A DNA stretch of 35,029 nucleotides from an uncultured Fimbriimonadaceae bacterium (GTDB lineage Bacteria > Armatimonadota > Fimbriimonadia > Fimbriimonadales > Fimbriimonadaceae). Made by a program: the position numbers and the translations under genes. The notes beneath the pieces were generated by a model. The model was given only the letters and a program-made list of their open reading frames with translations, was not told the DNA's origin and searched no databases. The DNA lies in assembly GCA_937961665.1 (NCBI GenBank), contig CALGMO010000052.1:1-35029 (forward strand), read 5' to 3'. Shown here in pieces: positions 1,811-9,646 of this stretch. Position 1 is the first letter of the stretch, and each line of letters opens with the position of its first letter.

Positions 1811-3577
1811 GTGAAGCGTGCGTGGCTGATCGTTGTCGCGTTCGGAGCGGCGCTGCTCGCGGGTTGCGGCGGCGGGGGAGGGGGCGGCGGCGACCGAACC
1901 GTCTCCGACTTCGTCTACACCACCGACTGGGTCGCCGGATCGTCGGGACCGACGGGCCGGTCGCAACGGCTCTCGCTGGTGGACTCCAACGGCATCGTGC
2001 GCTGGGAGACCGTGATCAACCGCGAGGTGGACGGTCTGCAGGCTCAGCCGCTGGCGTCCGTGCCGACGGGCGACTTCCGGCTCGTCGCCCAGCTCTACAG
2101 CGAGCGGGACGCGGCCGGGGTGCAGACTGGACTGCTGACGGCTTCCGTCGAGGTCGCTCCGAAGGGCGCGTTCCAGACCGCGGTCGGTGCGCCGCCCGCG
2201 TCCCTGCGGGTGCAGCCGTCGTCGCTCGCGCTCCAGCCTCCAGCTTCGGCTCGGCTGGTCGCCACACCCTTGGCCGCCGACCAGAGGCCCGTGTTCGTCG
2301 CCCCCGACTCCTTGGGGTGGAGCTCCTCCGCACCGGCCGTCGCGACGGTGGACGAGGATGGCATCGTCCAGGCCTTGGCCGCGGGCGAGGCGAGGATCGA
2401 GGCCCGCCACATCCCTACCGGCGTCTCGGCGAGCGCGCCGGTCGTCGTGAGCCCTTCCTCCGCAGAGCGGACCAAATGGACGATCCTCGTGTTCCTCAAC
2501 GGCGCCAACGATCTGGCCGAGTTCAGCGTGAAGGACATGAACGAGATGGAGCGGGCCGCCCAGAACCCGCAGGTGAGGGTCGTCGTGCAGTGGAAGGTGG
2601 ACCCGTCGTACCTGTCCTCCGGCGGGTTCCGTGGCACCCGCCGCTACCTGATCAAGCCGGACTCCTCCTCGTCGATCCGGAGCGAGCTGGTTCAGGACCT
2701 CGGGGAGCGCGTGGACATGGGCCGAGCGACGACCCTGCGGGACTTCGTCCAGTGGGGGATGCAGAACTACCCCGCGGACCGCTTCGGGCTGATCGTCTGG
2801 AACCACGGCAACGGGTGGCTCCGGTCGGCGACGGCCGCCGCCAGCCGCGCGATCAGCTACGACGACCTGACCGGCAACGCCATCCAGGTGTGGCAGCTCG
2901 GCTCCGCCCTCCAAGGGGGGAGATTCGACTTCATCGCTTGGGACGCCAGCCTGATGCAGATGCTGGAGGTGGCCTACGAGGTGCGCGGCGTCACGGACTT
3001 CGTGGTCGGGAGCCAGGAGAGCCCTCCCGGGGACGGCTACCCGTACGAAGCGGTCCTGCGGAGGTTCCGAGACGATCCCGACGCGCCCACGGGGACGCTC
3101 GTCCGATCCTTCGTGGACGCGATGCTGGAGGAACCCGCCTACGCGAACCGCAAGATCACGCAGAGCGTCCTGCGAACCTCCGCCCTGGCCGAGGTGGCCC
3201 GGGCCGTGGACGTGCTGGGCGCGGCGCTGGCCGCGAACGCCTCGCAGCTGGGCGCGACGATGGCGCGCGTGCGCAGCACCACGCAGGCCTACTCTCCGAG
3301 CGACTACAGGCACTTCTACGACCTGCTGGGCGTGGCGAGGAACCTCGAGGATGCCGCGGGCGTTCCCGCGATCGTCGCGGCGGCGGGCGACGTGCGGCGG
3401 GCCGTGCAGGCCGCCGTGGCCTACGAGCGCCACAACGCGCAGTCCCCCGGCAGCAACGGCGTGTCGATCGACCTGACCCCCAAGGATCGCTGGAGCGCGT
3501 CCGCGCTGGCGGACTACCGCCGGCTCCAGCTGGGAGCGGACACGCGCTGGGACGAGTGGCTGGCCGTGGCGCCCTAA
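1811..3577 (+). CDS. clostripain-like (peptidase C11) lipoprotein with Ser at the catalytic Cys position
   Basis: A protein of 588 residues with a GTG start. The N-terminus is a lipoprotein signal (LLAGC, lipidated Cys19) followed by a run of glycines, so it should be membrane anchored and exported. Residues about 140-218 resemble a bacterial Ig-like (Big_2) domain (WSSSAPAVATVDEDGIV). From about 222 the sequence matches clostripain-family peptidases: TILVFLNGANDLAE, then IVWNHGNGW with the expected catalytic His332, then the block normally written DACLM. Here that block reads WDASLMQML, so Ser380 stands where the family has its catalytic Cys. The downstream block VGSQESPPGDGYPY is conserved. 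It is either an inactive homologue or one using Ser. The gene stands alone: GGDEF gene divergent upstream, long leader region downstream. Confidence 0.88.
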   Translation: MKRAWLIVVAFGAALLAGCGGGGGGGGDRTVSDFVYTTDWVAGSSGPTGRSQRLSLVDSNGIVRWETVINREVDGLQAQPLASVPTGDFRLVAQLYSERDAAGVQTGLLTASVEVAPKGAFQTAVGAPPASLRVQPSSLALQPPASARLVATPLAADQRPVFVAPDSLGWSSSAPAVATVDEDGIVQALAAGEARIEARHIPTGVSASAPVVVSPSSAERTKWTILVFLNGANDLAEFSVKDMNEMERAAQNPQVRVVVQWKVDPSYLSSGGFRGTRRYLIKPDSSSSIRSELVQDLGERVDMGRATTLRDFVQWGMQNYPADRFGLIVWNHGNGWLRSATAAASRAISYDDLTGNAIQVWQLGSALQGGRFDFIAWDASLMQMLEVAYEVRGVTDFVVGSQESPPGDGYPYEAVLRRFRDDPDAPTGTLVRSFVDAMLEEPAYANRKITQSVLRTSALAEVARAVDVLGAALAANASQLGATMARVRSTTQAYSPSDYRHFYDLLGVARNLEDAAGVPAIVAAAGDVRRAVQAAVAYERHNAQSPGSNGVSIDLTPKDRWSASALADYRRLQLGADTRWDEWLAVAP

Positions 3578-3596
3578 TCGACCGCACAAGGAAAAG

Positions 3597-3617
3597 GGGC
3601 CGGCGCGTCGCCGGCCC
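3597..3617 (+). terminator. GC-rich hairpin after the clostripain-like gene
   Basis: A perfect 9-bp inverted repeat, GGGCCGGCG and CGCCGGCCC, with a CGT loop, starts 20 nt after the stop codon. It is preceded by an A-run, but no T-run follows it on the plus strand. Read on the minus strand it is followed by CCTTTTCC. A plus-strand terminator role is inferred from position; without a U-tract it may act as an mRNA-stabilising stem instead. Confidence 0.45.
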
Positions 3618-3830
3618 TGGGCTGGAGGGGGGTGGTGGAAGGGGATTGGCTGTGAGGTTGTTGGTTGGGGATGTGGATTCTCTTGCAACCAAGGCATTCC
3701 GTGCGGCCAGACTCGGTTCGGCCTGAACTTGTACTAGGCTTGCTGCAAGCAGCCGAGAAACCCGTTGAGTTGCGCGCGAAGGATTGCCGGGACCCCGGGC
3801 GCGAGCCGGCGAAGGAGGGGTAGAGTGAAG
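3618..3830. other. non-coding leader upstream of the riboswitch
   Basis: No credible gene lies here. The only structure I can point to is a 7-bp inverted repeat, TTGGTTG at 3661-3667 and CAACCAA at 3686-3692, and a short GCTTG/CAAGC repeat near 3738-3750. The promoter of the riboswitch transcript should lie in this stretch, but I could not pick a convincing -35/-10 pair. Long frames running through it on the minus strand are shadows. Confidence 0.5.
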
Positions 3831-3941
3831 GCGCCGAACTCGGACGCCCGTCCGGGACGGGGGAACCACGTATCAGGGGCGCATCGCGGAAACGCGTAGG
3901 ATATCTCTTGGTCCGAGCCCGTCAGCTAACCCCGTAGGCGC
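3831..3941 (+). promoter_or_regulatory. cyclic di-AMP riboswitch (ydaO/yuaA type)
   Basis: The segment shows the conserved blocks of the ydaO/yuaA aptamer in order: GCGCCGAA at the 5' end, GGGGGAACCA, GGGGCGCATC, then GGATATCTCT, and finally TCCGAGCCCGTCAGCTAACC with CCGTAGGCGC at the 3' end. The closing helix pairs GCGCC (3831-3835) with GGCGC (3937-3941). RNAs of this class bind c-di-AMP and usually turn genes off when the ligand is high; known targets include potassium transporters, cell-wall hydrolases and osmolyte uptake. Here it lies 14 nt upstream of a mini-ORF start and heads a pair of unrecognised genes. There is no obvious intrinsic terminator after the aptamer. The ribosome-binding site AGGAGAGG follows at 3945-3952, so control of translation or of a longer-range fold is likely. 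Recognition is from conserved sequence; no model was run. Confidence 0.93.
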
Positions 3942-3955
3942 AACAGGAGAGGACC

Positions 3956-4018
3956 ATGGCTCCCCGGCGGGGCGGTGGCCTCCAAGACGACGGTCGATGG
4001 GAGGTCGAGGCATGTTGA
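3956..4018 (+). CDS. 20-codon leader mini-ORF after the riboswitch
   Basis: ATG at 3956 has a good Shine-Dalgarno (AGGAGAGG) just upstream and opens a 20-residue frame rich in Gly and Arg at first, then acidic. It ends in TGA at 4016-4018, which overlaps an ATG at 4018-4020 (TGATG) and lies just past the ATG at 4012 of the next gene. The first codons contain a small CCCC-GGC-GGGG hairpin (3962-3972). The arrangement suggests translational coupling, with the riboswitch gating the first ribosome-binding site and passage of ribosomes opening the next. Its short length makes a structural role for the peptide doubtful. It could also be a chance frame. Confidence 0.5.
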   Translation: MAPRRGGGLQDDGRWEVEAC

Positions 4019-4293
4019 TGGAGGCGAGAATCCGGCGCGAGCTGGACGAGGCGCGGAGCGCCCCAGGATCCCGCTTGGGAAAGGTGCGGAGGTTGCTTAG
4101 GCTCTCCAGGAAGACGCGGGCGTTGGCGGAGCATCTGGCCGACCTGGGCTTCCAGGAGTTCCACAGGAACCGCGACTCGAGGTCGAAGAGGTTCTGGCGC
4201 ACGGCCGCCAACCTGCTCGCTCTCGCGGACGTCGCGCGCCTGCTGGCTCGCAGGGAGCTGCAGGAGTCGAAGGTTCCGCGCGGCGCTTCGTAG
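4012..4293 (+). CDS. small basic helical protein of unknown function, first full gene of the riboswitch unit
   Basis: A protein of 93 residues that I do not recognise. The ATG at 4012 is chosen because GGAGG at 4001-4005 sits at the right distance; ATGs at 3997 and 4018 are in frame. It is strongly basic, predicted mostly helical, with Arg/Lys/Leu-rich repeats such as KVRRLLRLSRKTRALAEHL and an amphipathic stretch (NLLALADVARLLARREL). There is no signal peptide or clear membrane segment, so it is probably cytosolic, perhaps binding nucleic acid or a partner protein. It is the first substantial gene downstream of the c-di-AMP riboswitch and shares its orientation with the 205-residue gene 92 nt further on. 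Confidence 0.7.
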   Translation: MLMEARIRRELDEARSAPGSRLGKVRRLLRLSRKTRALAEHLADLGFQEFHRNRDSRSKRFWRTAANLLALADVARLLARRELQESKVPRGAS

Positions 4294-4385
4294 GCGGACC
4301 TGGCGGCGAACGCCCGAAAGCGGGCCTGCCGCGAGAAGGAGGCTTCGCAGGCCGTCCGTTCCCATGCGTCGGCCGAGGAGGGTCC

Positions 4386-5003
4386 ATGTCCGTTGAAACG
4401 CGCACCGAGTGCCGCATCGAGCTGCTGCCCGACCGGACCGTTCGGGTCTGGCTGGGGCACGGCGGGCTCTGGCTCCTGCTGGATCTGCACGGCCTGGCGG
4501 CCAACGAGTACCTGGTCGCCGTCTCGCTCCTGCGGGCGGACCCGATCGAGGCGCTCCGGGTGGCCGGACGGATGCCGACGTTGGTTCACGGAGTTCCACC
4601 GGACACCGCGCTCCCTGCGCACGATCCAGAGCTGGTCATGGACGCTTCGATGCGCGACATGAACCGGATCGACGACTTCATCTTCGTCCACAGCAGGGCG
4701 GAGATGCTCCGAATGGGCGTGCCTGCGCTCATTCTCGACGTCACAAGGCGCCTCGCGGATCTTGGCTATTGGACCGACCCTGAGGCGGTGCAGTCGGTCT
4801 GTCGCGGGTTTTGGGAGTGGGCGGCGAACGAGGAGGCCCTCCGCATCGCGGAGTCGCTTGCGGAGGCCGATCCCAGCCTGACGGAGCGCGAGCTCGTGGC
4901 GGCCACCGCCAGGGAGTTGCTCCGGCGGGGAGTCGGTCCGACGAGCGCGGCCAGGAAGTTCGCCGCGGATGGCGTGCGGCGGTACCTGGCGCGGTCGGAG
5001 TAG
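4386..5003 (+). CDS. hypothetical protein, second gene of the riboswitch unit
   Basis: A protein of 205 residues with no family I recognise. The ATG at 4386 has a strong ribosome-binding site (GAGGAGGG) directly upstream. The first 60 residues look beta-rich (CRIELLPDRTVRVWLGHGG, then LWLLLDLHGL). The middle (residues about 80-115) has a Met/Asp-rich stretch. The C-terminal 90 residues are helical with acidic and basic faces. No signal peptide or membrane helix is evident. It follows the 93-residue gene by 92 nt on the same strand, so both probably answer to the riboswitch. It ends 23 nt from the stop of the convergent phosphoesterase gene. Confidence 0.72.
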   Translation: MSVETRTECRIELLPDRTVRVWLGHGGLWLLLDLHGLAANEYLVAVSLLRADPIEALRVAGRMPTLVHGVPPDTALPAHDPELVMDASMRDMNRIDDFIFVHSRAEMLRMGVPALILDVTRRLADLGYWTDPEAVQSVCRGFWEWAANEEALRIAESLAEADPSLTERELVAATARELLRRGVGPTSAARKFAADGVRRYLARSE

Positions 5004-6077: not shown

Positions 6078-9000
6078 TCAGCGCCGTACCCGGAACTGGT
6101 AACGACCGCTTAACAGGCCGACCGTGACCGCGCCCGGCCGGACCATGCGCACCCGCACTCCGCGCGCCTCGCGCAGGGGAAGGCCCGACTCCTCGACCGA
6201 CTCGACCGACGGAGCGGGGATCGTCGCGATCGCGGTGGAGTTCGGCGGAACGACCACGGTCCACTCCAGCCCGTCGGACCTCTGGACGATCTCGCTGACG
6301 ATCCGTCCGTAGGGGCCCTCGTGCCACGCCCTCACCTCGGGCACGCGCGGAGACAGCTTGGGTTCGAGCAACACCCGCTTGAAGCCAGGCAAGGACGGAT
6401 CGGGCCGGATCCCGGCCAGCTGCCGATAGAACCACGCGCTCACGTCACCGAACATGATGTGGTTGCGCGAGGCGTTGCCGTCCCACGTCTCCCACAGCGT
6501 GGTGGCCCCCTGCTCCAGCCACCAGCCGTAGCTCGGTGGATCCGTGCGGGTGAGCAGGTCTAGCGCCAGCTCGTGGGCGCCCCGCTCGCTGAGCGTGTGG
6601 AACAGGTACTTGGCGCCGAGGATGCCGACGTCCAGCCGGTTGCCGTCCTGATCGATCCGCTCCAGAAGCCTCTGGAAGACGGGAGCCTTCTGCGGCCGCT
6701 TCAGCATGTCTTGGAACAGGGCGCACGACTGCGCCGTCTGGGTGCCGGGGCCGACCGTGCCGTCCTCGCGCAGGAAGGCCGACCGGAACGCGGCGCGGAT
6801 GTTCTTGGACAGCGTGGCGTAGTGCGCCGCCTCGCCGGCCCGCCCGAGCAGGGTCGCCGCGAGCGAGACGATCTCCGCGTCGATCGCGAAGTAGGCGGTC
6901 GACGTGATGTCCGCGGGCGTCTCCGTCTTGGCCGGGACCCAGTCTCCCAGCCCGAACGGGATCAGCAGCTTTCTGGAGTTCCGCTCCAGGTAGTCCACGT
7001 AGCGGCGCATGGAGTCGTAGCACCGGGTCAGCGCCCCCGCGTCGCCGGTGTAGACGTACAGATAGTACGGGATGAGGATCAGAGCGCTGTCCCACGCCGG
7101 GCCGTTGCCCCAGGCGTAGCCCCACCCTCCCGTGGGGACGATCCCGGGCAAGGCGCCGTCCTCCCGCTGCTCGTCCATCAGGTCGTCGAGCCACTTCAGG
7201 TATCCGGCCGCGTTGTCCCAGTTGAGGAGGCCCTGCTCGGTGGCCAGGTGCGCGTCGCCGGTCCAACCGTTCTTCTCGAGGTGCGGGCAGTCGGTGGGGA
7301 TGCCCACGAAGTTCGAGCGGTAGCTCCAGAGGGTCGCGTCCTGAATCCGATCGAACAAGGGGGTGCTCCGCACGTCTCCCGCGCGCGGGAAGTCGGTGTG
7401 CACCACCCGGCCCTCGAGGTCGCCGAGGCTCGGGGAGCCGGGCCAGCCCTCGACCTGCACGTATTGGAAGCCGTAGTAGGCGAAGGCGCTCTCGAAGGTC
7501 TCCTCGCCGCCGCCGCGAAGGGTGTAGCGCACCTCCGAGAAGGTGGGATCGAACACCAGCCCAGACAGGTTGGAGCGGTCGACCGTGCCGTCCGGATGCA
7601 GCTTTTCGCCCATCAGCAGCCGCACCTGGGTGCCCTCTGGTCCGCGCACGCGGAACCGCACCCAGCCGGCGATGTTCTGGCCGAGGTCGAACACGAACAC
7701 TCCCGGCTTCACCTCGCGGACCGACTTGGGGCGCAGGGTCTCGGTGACCCGGCACGGCATGGAGCGAAGGGCGGCCGTCCTGCCCTTCGGCCCCGGCACC
7801 TCGGCGGCGTTCCGCCAAGCCGAGTCGTCGAAGCCGGGCTCGTCCCACCCGGGAAGCTCCAGGCGGGCGTCGTAGACCTCCCCTTGGCGGACGGCGTCCC
7901 AGCGCCAAGGCCCCTCTCCGAGCCGCCACGATCCGTCCGTCGCGACGATCTGACTGGTCCCGTCCGCATACTCCAGCAGGAGCTGCAGGCGCGCCATCGG
8001 CGGCTCGCGCCAGGGCGCTCGCTCGAAGTTCCACGCGTCGCGGGCGGGAACGTTCAGGAATCCGTTGCCCAGCACGATCCCGATGGCGTTGCGGCCCGGG
8101 CGCACGAGCGCCGTCACGTCGCGCACCGTGTACAGCACGCGGCGGTCATAGCGGGTGAACGGCGGATCGAGGACGCGGTCGTCGGCGGGCCGGCCGTTGA
8201 GCGTCAGCAGGTTGTATCCGATCCCGCTGGAGAAAACGAGCGCGCGGCGCAGGCCGGGCTTCGCCTCGAACTCCTTGCGGAGCATCGGCGCGGGAGCGGG
8301 AGGCTCGGGGTCGGGCCCCACCTCGCCCCACGGATCGCTGCCGTATCCGGCGAGCACCTTGGCCGCCCTGCCCGGGGCGAGCCCGTCCTCGGTCTCGGCC
8401 CACCGCCACGAGGCGTCGGTGACCAGGACGTCCCGGCCGTCGGCCGTGAGCCGTCCGATCAGGCCCGCGGGGCCTCCGTCGTTCTGAACCTTGACGAGCA
8501 GGGTGTGACGTCCCTTTCCGAGGCGGCCCGACAGGTCCACCCGCACCACCGTCCGCCAGTCCTCGCCGGTTCCCGTGGGCCTCGTCCGGGCGACCTCCTG
8601 CCCGTCGAGGTACGCCTCGAAGCGGTCGTCGGCGGTGATCAGCAGCTCGGCCTGCCTCGGCGCGTCCCTCAGCTCGACCGTCGCCTTGAACCATCGCACG
8701 GCGGGCTGCTGGCTCCTCTCGCCGGTCCAGATCCACGAGGATCCGGCGAGGCTGCGGGGCTTGGGCGGCCGCTCCCTGCCGATCCACCGCGCGCGCCAGT
8801 CGGACGGCTCGAGCAGGCCCATCGTCCATTCGGCGACGTCGCTCCAGCGGGAGGGCTGCTTGGCCTCGTCCCATACCCGCACGCGCCAGAAGCAGCGCTG
8901 CGCCGACCGGAGGGCCTTGCCGCCGTAGGGAACCAGCACGCTGCGGTCGGAAGGCACCTTGCCCGAGTCCCAGAGATCAGGCTGGCCGGTCTCGAGGGCC

Positions 9001-9200
9001 GCCCGCGACGTCGCCACGTGAATCTGATAGGCGGTCTGCCGAACGCCTCGGCGGCCCAGCTCTTGGCAGAGGATCTTCCACGACAGTCGCGGAGACGCCT
9101 CCTCGACCCCCAGCGGGTTCTCGAGGTGTTCGCATCGCAAGGACCCTATCGAGATTCCACTCGCGCCAACCATGACGGCCCACCCTACCCAAAGGACCAT
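6078..9200 (-). CDS. alpha-L-rhamnosidase, GH78
   Basis: A protein of 1040 residues, a typical length for the family, with a short hydrophobic N-terminus (MVLWVGWAVMVGASG) that probably exports it. It then has the fibronectin-like start (LENPLGVEEASPRLSW), an inserted beta-sandwich (about residues 140-290), the Bac_rhamnosid N-domain and the six-hairpin catalytic domain. Within the latter, TDCPHLEKNGWTGDAH carries Glu642 and TLWETW carries Glu904, matching the acid and base positions of GH78. It removes terminal alpha-L-rhamnose from pectin side chains, glycosides or bacterial polysaccharide. The same frame is open to 9470, but the part upstream of 9200 is antisense to nothing sensible and overlaps the preceding gene, so ATG 9200 is preferred. 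It lies 8 nt after the membrane-protein gene and 43 nt before the phosphoesterase. Confidence 0.93.
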   Translation of the reverse strand: MVLWVGWAVMVGASGISIGSLRCEHLENPLGVEEASPRLSWKILCQELGRRGVRQTAYQIHVATSRAALETGQPDLWDSGKVPSDRSVLVPYGGKALRSAQRCFWRVRVWDEAKQPSRWSDVAEWTMGLLEPSDWRARWIGRERPPKPRSLAGSSWIWTGERSQQPAVRWFKATVELRDAPRQAELLITADDRFEAYLDGQEVARTRPTGTGEDWRTVVRVDLSGRLGKGRHTLLVKVQNDGGPAGLIGRLTADGRDVLVTDASWRWAETEDGLAPGRAAKVLAGYGSDPWGEVGPDPEPPAPAPMLRKEFEAKPGLRRALVFSSGIGYNLLTLNGRPADDRVLDPPFTRYDRRVLYTVRDVTALVRPGRNAIGIVLGNGFLNVPARDAWNFERAPWREPPMARLQLLLEYADGTSQIVATDGSWRLGEGPWRWDAVRQGEVYDARLELPGWDEPGFDDSAWRNAAEVPGPKGRTAALRSMPCRVTETLRPKSVREVKPGVFVFDLGQNIAGWVRFRVRGPEGTQVRLLMGEKLHPDGTVDRSNLSGLVFDPTFSEVRYTLRGGGEETFESAFAYYGFQYVQVEGWPGSPSLGDLEGRVVHTDFPRAGDVRSTPLFDRIQDATLWSYRSNFVGIPTDCPHLEKNGWTGDAHLATEQGLLNWDNAAGYLKWLDDLMDEQREDGALPGIVPTGGWGYAWGNGPAWDSALILIPYYLYVYTGDAGALTRCYDSMRRYVDYLERNSRKLLIPFGLGDWVPAKTETPADITSTAYFAIDAEIVSLAATLLGRAGEAAHYATLSKNIRAAFRSAFLREDGTVGPGTQTAQSCALFQDMLKRPQKAPVFQRLLERIDQDGNRLDVGILGAKYLFHTLSERGAHELALDLLTRTDPPSYGWWLEQGATTLWETWDGNASRNHIMFGDVSAWFYRQLAGIRPDPSLPGFKRVLLEPKLSPRVPEVRAWHEGPYGRIVSEIVQRSDGLEWTVVVPPNSTAIATIPAPSVESVEESGLPLREARGVRVRMVRPGAVTVGLLSGRYQFRVRR

Positions 9201-9208
9201 GACCCAGT

Positions 9209-9646
9209 CTATCTTGCGCGGGGCCGCGCGGCGCCCGCGGCGACGAGGCACACGATCTTGAGCGCCTCCAGCAGCCCGTAGACCGTATGGTGCATGCTCG
9301 GACCGGGGGACTCGCCCAGGATCTGCATCGTCAGCCGGCGATCGAGCTCCGGCTGCAGGGCGGCCATCTGGACCACGAACAGCGCGAGCGCGGCCAACGA
9401 CCCGGCGAGTCGCCAGCCCGAGGCCCGGCCGAGGAAGGCCCAGGCCGCGATCGGCGGCAGGAGCAGCCACTGGGCCGTGTGCAGCACCAAGAACTGGAGC
9501 CGGCCCACCTCGAGCAGCTGCGGCAGCGTGCTGAGCTGGGCCGCGAACTTGGCGGGGGCTAGCAGGAAGCTCCCGCAGGTCGCCAGCCCCGCGGCGAACC
9601 AGCAGAGGCCCGCATGGATCCGCCAGGCCGGCGATCCCTCGTGCAT
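9209..9646 (-). CDS. four-helix membrane protein, DUF4149-like
   Basis: A protein of 145 residues with four hydrophobic segments: LCWFAAGLATCGSFLLAPA, the region around HTAQWLLLPPIAAWAFLG, LAGSLAALALFVVQMAAL and YGLLEALKIVCLVAAG. The conserved-looking LQPELDRRL between helices three and four resembles small bacterial membrane proteins of the DUF4149 type. That similarity is from memory and moderate. The function is unknown. It sits 7 nt after hisG and 8 nt before the rhamnosidase, so it is clearly cotranscribed with both. Confidence 0.78.
   Translation of the reverse strand: MHEGSPAWRIHAGLCWFAAGLATCGSFLLAPAKFAAQLSTLPQLLEVGRLQFLVLHTAQWLLLPPIAAWAFLGRASGWRLAGSLAALALFVVQMAALQPELDRRLTMQILGESPGPSMHHTVYGLLEALKIVCLVAAGAARPRAR

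Follow-up and report, generated by a model that had tools for sequence, protein, structure and literature searches.

In Fimbriimonadia, a riboswitch of the c-di-AMP class precedes an undescribed family of small basic proteins. On balance, we favour the view that this RNA is a switch through which c-di-AMP represses translation, and that in this class it acts chiefly, among other targets, on a Fimbriimonadia-specific family of basic proteins predicted to form three helices. The regulon would consist of small basic helical proteins, at times joined by a putative binder of cyclic nucleotides. The riboswitch belongs to a known class; the target set is new. The element analysed here lies in a window of 35,029 nt, the whole stretch of DNA studied, from an uncultured Fimbriimonadaceae bacterium.

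The aptamer is a genuine riboswitch RNA of the c-di-AMP class (RF00379, the ydaO/yuaA class). A cmscan search placed it at 3822-3956 on the + strand at 86 bits, where the gathering cut-off is 38; the match covers model positions 1-134 of 134 (E-value 6.6e-19 for the whole window, 1.8e-20 for the 3500-4450 region). No other Rfam family matched in the window. The earlier note had placed the aptamer at 3831-3941; this is the core of the element, and the covariance model bears out the call. The loop-tail pseudoknot of the crystallised ydaO RNA (PMC5393176) is also present, formed by the loop UCUCUUG at 3904-3910 and the tail CAGGAGA at 3944-3950. These two strands covary over 78 riboswitches from related genomes, with pairs such as ACUCUUG/CGAGAGU, CUUUCG/CGAAAG and UGGUUCUUG/CAAGAACCG, and the mean loop-tail complementarity of the 78 copies is 15.0, compared with 12.9 ± 0.28 after swapping tails between sequences. 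The source genome (G000) has three RF00379 copies and a single gene with a PF02457 diadenylate cyclase domain (E 9.5e-40). We infer that c-di-AMP is the putative ligand.

The first gene behind the aptamer, ORF1 (4012-4293, + strand; ATG at 4012, stop ending at 4293), encodes a 93 aa protein with a pI of 11.8. Codon changes between the source genome and the sister species, G001, fall mostly at third positions (10, 6 and 30 changes at positions 1, 2 and 3, respectively). An AlphaFold2 model built from 31 sequences predicts an antiparallel three-helix bundle (pLDDT 91.8; helices 2-16, 21-51 and 55-87). The family has no match in Pfam, PHROG, NCBIfam, PADLOC or the PDB. It comprises 34 genes in 31 of the 113 genomes of the class Fimbriimonadia, and among 291 genomes of the phylum there is no convincing member beyond that class. 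The pI exceeds 9 in 29 of 31 members, with a median of 11.1. To judge from sequence comparison and modelling, the ORF1 family thus appears to consist of undescribed basic three-helix proteins found only in Fimbriimonadia.

Of the 34 ORF1-family genes in the class, 29 have RF00379 directly upstream (18 of 21 genes among 61 relatives, and 11 of the other 13), which makes the association between riboswitch and family a rule. A set of three thousand genes has about two riboswitches, and even one chance adjacency is expected to be rare; we give no probability for the 29 of 34 because the genes are related. The five members without a riboswitch (G008:C6, G014:C25, G027:C4, G076:C124 and G078:C102) still had none after a rescan at permissive settings. 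At two loci, L068 (G013:C2) and L223 (G074:C63), a tandem pair of ORF1-family genes lies behind a single riboswitch.

How might the aptamer control ORF1? The Shine-Dalgarno sequence of ORF1, GGGAGG, lies at 3999-4004, 7 nt before the ATG. Upstream of it, a candidate anti-Shine-Dalgarno element, UGGCCUCC (3976-3983, + strand), can form 8 pairs with GGAGGUCG at 4000-4007. The same element has an alternative partner in the aptamer tail, the candidate anti-anti-Shine-Dalgarno sequence GAGGaCCA (3949-3956), which can pair with UGGCCUC at 3976-3982 if one base is bulged, is kept in G001 and in the congener G002, and shares two bases with the pseudoknot strand at 3944-3950. The anti-Shine-Dalgarno element is conserved in the three species, and the 5ʹ flank between it and the tail drifts. 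As in the scheme proposed for nlpC of Corynebacterium glutamicum, the anti-Shine-Dalgarno element can therefore pair, by sequence, either with the Shine-Dalgarno sequence or with the GGAG-like letters that the aptamer tail offers further upstream. Both helices extend to other members. Summed over 16 long leaders, complementarity between tail and anti-Shine-Dalgarno element is 163.5, against 79 ± 19 in shuffles, and complementarity between anti-Shine-Dalgarno element and Shine-Dalgarno sequence is 212, against 172 ± 11; none of 500 single-base shuffles of the intervening sequence reached the observed sum for either helix. The same logic is written in other letters in the leaders of G050 (GAGCGUC/GAUGCUC and CUCCAUG/CGUGGAG) and L192 (AGGCGCGG/CCGCGCCU). 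Of 27 leaders examined, 11 are short and have another platform, a hairpin made by the tail immediately 5ʹ of AGGAGG.

We propose the following mechanism for ORF1. Without ligand, the tail at 3949-3956 would pair with the anti-Shine-Dalgarno element at 3976-3982, leaving the ribosome free to bind at 3999-4004. With c-di-AMP bound, the loop-tail pseudoknot (3904-3910 with 3944-3950) would hold the tail and free the anti-Shine-Dalgarno element, which could then pair with the Shine-Dalgarno sequence and turn off translation of ORF1. ORF1 would thus be made when c-di-AMP falls. The overlap between tail helix and pseudoknot, two bases only, counts against this scheme, and ViennaRNA predictions agree with it in part. 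In the predicted structure for the sister species, the anti-Shine-Dalgarno element pairs with the Shine-Dalgarno sequence; in the source species it preferably pairs with GGAGGC at 4019-4024 inside ORF1 instead, which would bury the start too but differs from the proposed helix. The start of ORF1 also lies within a 20-codon leader ORF at 3955-4017; we rejected this ORF as a coupling peptide because its ATG is lost in G001.

OFF control of translation is predicted for ORF1 because the anti-Shine-Dalgarno swap is conserved, because no terminator-like site was found on the + strand between the aptamer and ORF1, and because there is a precedent: nlpC is subject to a c-di-AMP OFF switch on translation, for which a CTCC/GGAG exchange has been proposed (PMC9960051). 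The founding member of the riboswitch class, ydaO of Bacillus subtilis, works by transcription termination (PMC9960051), and the element studied here could do the same rather than hide the Shine-Dalgarno sequence. The missing terminator and the conserved swap make this unlikely.

The architecture of the transcript raises the further question of whether ORF1 acts with its neighbour. ORF2 (4386-5003, + strand; 205 aa, acidic) follows ORF1 on the same strand after 92 nt, and each gene has a strong Shine-Dalgarno sequence, GAGGAGG in the case of ORF2. ORF2 is coding, since changes relative to G001 favour third positions (50, 31 and 72 at positions 1, 2 and 3) and no frameshift occurs over the 205 codons; it is under weaker constraint than ORF1. 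The earlier note had suggested that the two genes may be an undescribed system under c-di-AMP control, and had asked whether homologues in relatives follow the riboswitch as well. The answer is positive for ORF1, as described above, and negative for ORF2 as a partner: among 291 genomes of the phylum, the only ORF2 homologue is in the sister species (70% identity), and in G002 ORF1 is followed directly by the phosphoesterase gene, with ORF2 absent. Nor do 50,697 phage records, IMG/VR or the PDB contain a relative of ORF2, and it matches no family in Pfam, PHROG, NCBIfam or PADLOC. Its model, from two sequences, has a pLDDT of 73, and a fold search gave no usefully scored match. Hence, although the two genes are adjacent and both coding in two species, a dedicated two-protein system is very improbable, given that ORF2 is missing from G002 and from every other genome searched except G001. 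We take ORF2 to be a recent genus-level passenger or accessory on the transcript, as its distribution suggests. Other parts of the earlier description stand: neither protein has a known family or falls among the usual c-di-AMP targets, and the predicted structures agree that both lack membrane segments.

The riboswitch and the two ORFs form a stand-alone unit, since a calcineurin-like phosphoesterase gene lies downstream of ORF2 on the other strand and a Peptidase_C11 gene lies upstream on the + strand. The upstream gene (1811-3577) encodes a secreted-looking protein with a lipobox-like start and Big_2 and Peptidase_C11 (clostripain family) domains. Further away, at 6078-9470 on the - strand, is a large alpha-L-rhamnosidase with five Pfam domains; the listed ORF probably begins ahead of the true start.

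We also considered what the riboswitch controls elsewhere. The relatives, placed through homologues from named genomes, belong to Armatimonadota (Fimbriimonadales/Fimbriimonadaceae). RF00379 occurs in 43 of 61 relatives' genomes, with 78 copies in total. When the DNA behind all 78 copies was taken and its ORFs were clustered into families, 34 of the riboswitches proved to precede members of one of three families of small proteins: that of ORF1 (alignments A2 and A4), a second family of basic small helical proteins (A3), and an acidic family (A1). A3 proteins often end in E(Y/P)PFM(E/D)YS(S/A), and 10 of 11 A3 genes lie behind RF00379. The two small helical families are matched by hhalign at E 0.0026, but with a probability of 11.5% over 50 columns. 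In the source genome itself, two of the three RF00379 copies head small basic helical proteins. One of these, L088 (G000:C64:47793-47920, - strand), heads an A3-family member, a basic small helical protein of 108 aa with the C-terminus EYPFMDYSA. The tail of this riboswitch folds into a perfect 8-bp hairpin, GAGAATGC/GCATTCTC, followed by CTCC and the Shine-Dalgarno sequence, the same swap logic.

The remaining copies head genes that look unrelated when judged by their sequences, among them hisB-like and major-facilitator-like genes and genes for small membrane and secreted proteins. Judged by eye, the source-genome copy L087 (G000:C94:17542-17677, - strand) heads a gene with the sequence of hisB (imidazoleglycerol-phosphate dehydratase), followed by a hisH-like gene; in several relatives, too, riboswitches are followed by hisB-like genes. 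A link between c-di-AMP and histidine synthesis would be unusual. At L071, L074, L076, L015 and at L047, L020, L072, L082, ~130-400 nt separate the riboswitch from the gene it precedes, which encodes a major-facilitator-like transporter or belongs to a family of small membrane proteins; this spacing suggests a different platform.

The acidic A1 family is related to Tad1 (Thoeris anti-defence 1). It matches solved Tad1 structures (8kbb, E 2.8e-10; 7uav, E 4e-7; profile positions 20-97) and phrog_2428 (E 3e-18), with the common region FQxG...GINGC..ED.I......L...QG....C.ENA.AL..L. Phages use Tad1 and Acb2 to sequester the cyclic nucleotides on which CBASS and Thoeris depend (PMC12043709). The Tad1-like family occurs in 27 of the 61 relatives and looks cellular, since no close phage copies of it were found. 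At 11 of 40 named loci scanned, RF00379 lies within 600 nt upstream of the Tad1-like gene. In two of these the Tad1-like gene comes first behind the riboswitch, and in nine a gene for a small helical protein of ~88-117 aa intervenes. The intervening genes vary: that of L140, the operon of G025, matches the ORF1-family profile and, at 39% identity (E 7e-12), is the nearest homologue that ORF1 has beyond its genus; that of L141 matches more weakly; others belong to a distinct “MSFVSQIMRKASIVERS” family with marginal profile similarity only. Some genomes carry two Tad1-like paralogues (L149 and L169 in CP075366.1; L153 and L170), with at least one of each pair behind a riboswitch. Several further Tad1-like genes have a response-regulator gene nearby and no riboswitch.

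What is the function of ORF1? Handling of cyclic nucleotides is our leading guess for the regulon because of the operons shared with a Tad1-family protein, and we tentatively suggest that ORF1 takes part in the handling of, or the response to, such nucleotides. The earlier note had looked to turgor or cell-wall state; the relatives point to cyclic nucleotides instead, and thereby suggest a c-di-AMP response different from those known for potassium and the cell wall. For the source genome, which has no Tad1-like gene, this suggestion would rest on the relatives' operons. ORF1 might then be an adaptor for, or a binder of, an anionic partner, whether a nucleotide, an RNA or an acidic Tad1-like protein. 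An extension of this idea, a Fimbriimonadia sponge circuit in which the riboswitch lets a cellular Tad1-family protein and ORF1-family partners be made when c-di-AMP falls, sponge and riboswitch closing a feedback loop that acts on either c-di-AMP or an immune nucleotide, is speculative and rather improbable.

An alternative explanation is that ORF1 is an osmotic, potassium or envelope stress protein, and that the Tad1-like neighbours are incidental co-regulated genes. The known targets of the riboswitch concern potassium and osmolyte transport and the cell wall (PMC9960051), and 22 of 28 Tad1-like hits are away from any riboswitch found. However, ORF1 has neither a transporter gene nor a wall gene as its neighbour, and in nine loci a small helical gene comes before the Tad1-like one. 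We consider this explanation possible but doubtful. From searches of Pfam, NCBIfam, PHROG and PADLOC, neither ORF1 nor ORF2 fits the known target classes (potassium uptake, osmolyte transport, wall hydrolases). It is also conceivable, though distinctly unlikely, that the ORF1 family are sponges of cyclic nucleotides of the Acb2 type. The order and size of the helices in the ORF1 model correspond to the description of Acb2, a short N-terminal helix and two long antiparallel helices in ~94 aa (PMC12043709), but three-helix bundles are common, fold searches with ORF1 returned only generic helical bundles, and there is no profile similarity to T4 Vs.4 or to any solved chain. The hhalign comparison with T4 Vs.4, which gave no match, is a weak test with a single distant sequence, and the absence of Acb2 from the fold lists excludes nothing. 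We retain a role connected with cyclic nucleotides as the tentative reading for ORF1, and do not classify the protein as Acb2.

The known regulon of this riboswitch comprises potassium, osmolytes and the cell wall. In Fimbriimonadia this RNA is directed at small, basic, helical proteins absent from the databases, and in several lineages also at a protein homologous to a nucleotide sponge of phages. No paper in the literature searched links c-di-AMP riboswitches with Armatimonadetes. Through these loci, c-di-AMP physiology beyond Firmicutes and Actinobacteria could be put to concrete tests, as could the part that sponge-family proteins play when they are the cell's own.

Comparison with described systems places the components separately. 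Acb2 (T4 Vs.4) resembles the ORF1 model in helix order and size, and no sequence-profile relation between them was found. Tad1 (8kbb, 7uav; phrog_2428) has a conserved region in common with the Tad1-like protein of the relatives, which differs in being apparently cellular, in being acidic with ~110 aa, and in lying in c-di-AMP riboswitch operons. The ydaO/kimA riboswitch of B. subtilis is like the RNA described here in aptamer sequence, in structure and in its loop-tail pseudoknot, but its target is a potassium importer rather than an undescribed small protein, and its terminator is not seen here. The closest likeness in control is to nlpC of C. glutamicum, where OFF control of translation is likewise proposed to work by switching which GGAG pairs with CTCC; there the target is a cell-wall peptidase, whereas here it is a basic protein predicted to form three helices, and the swap is supported by comparison of many leaders.
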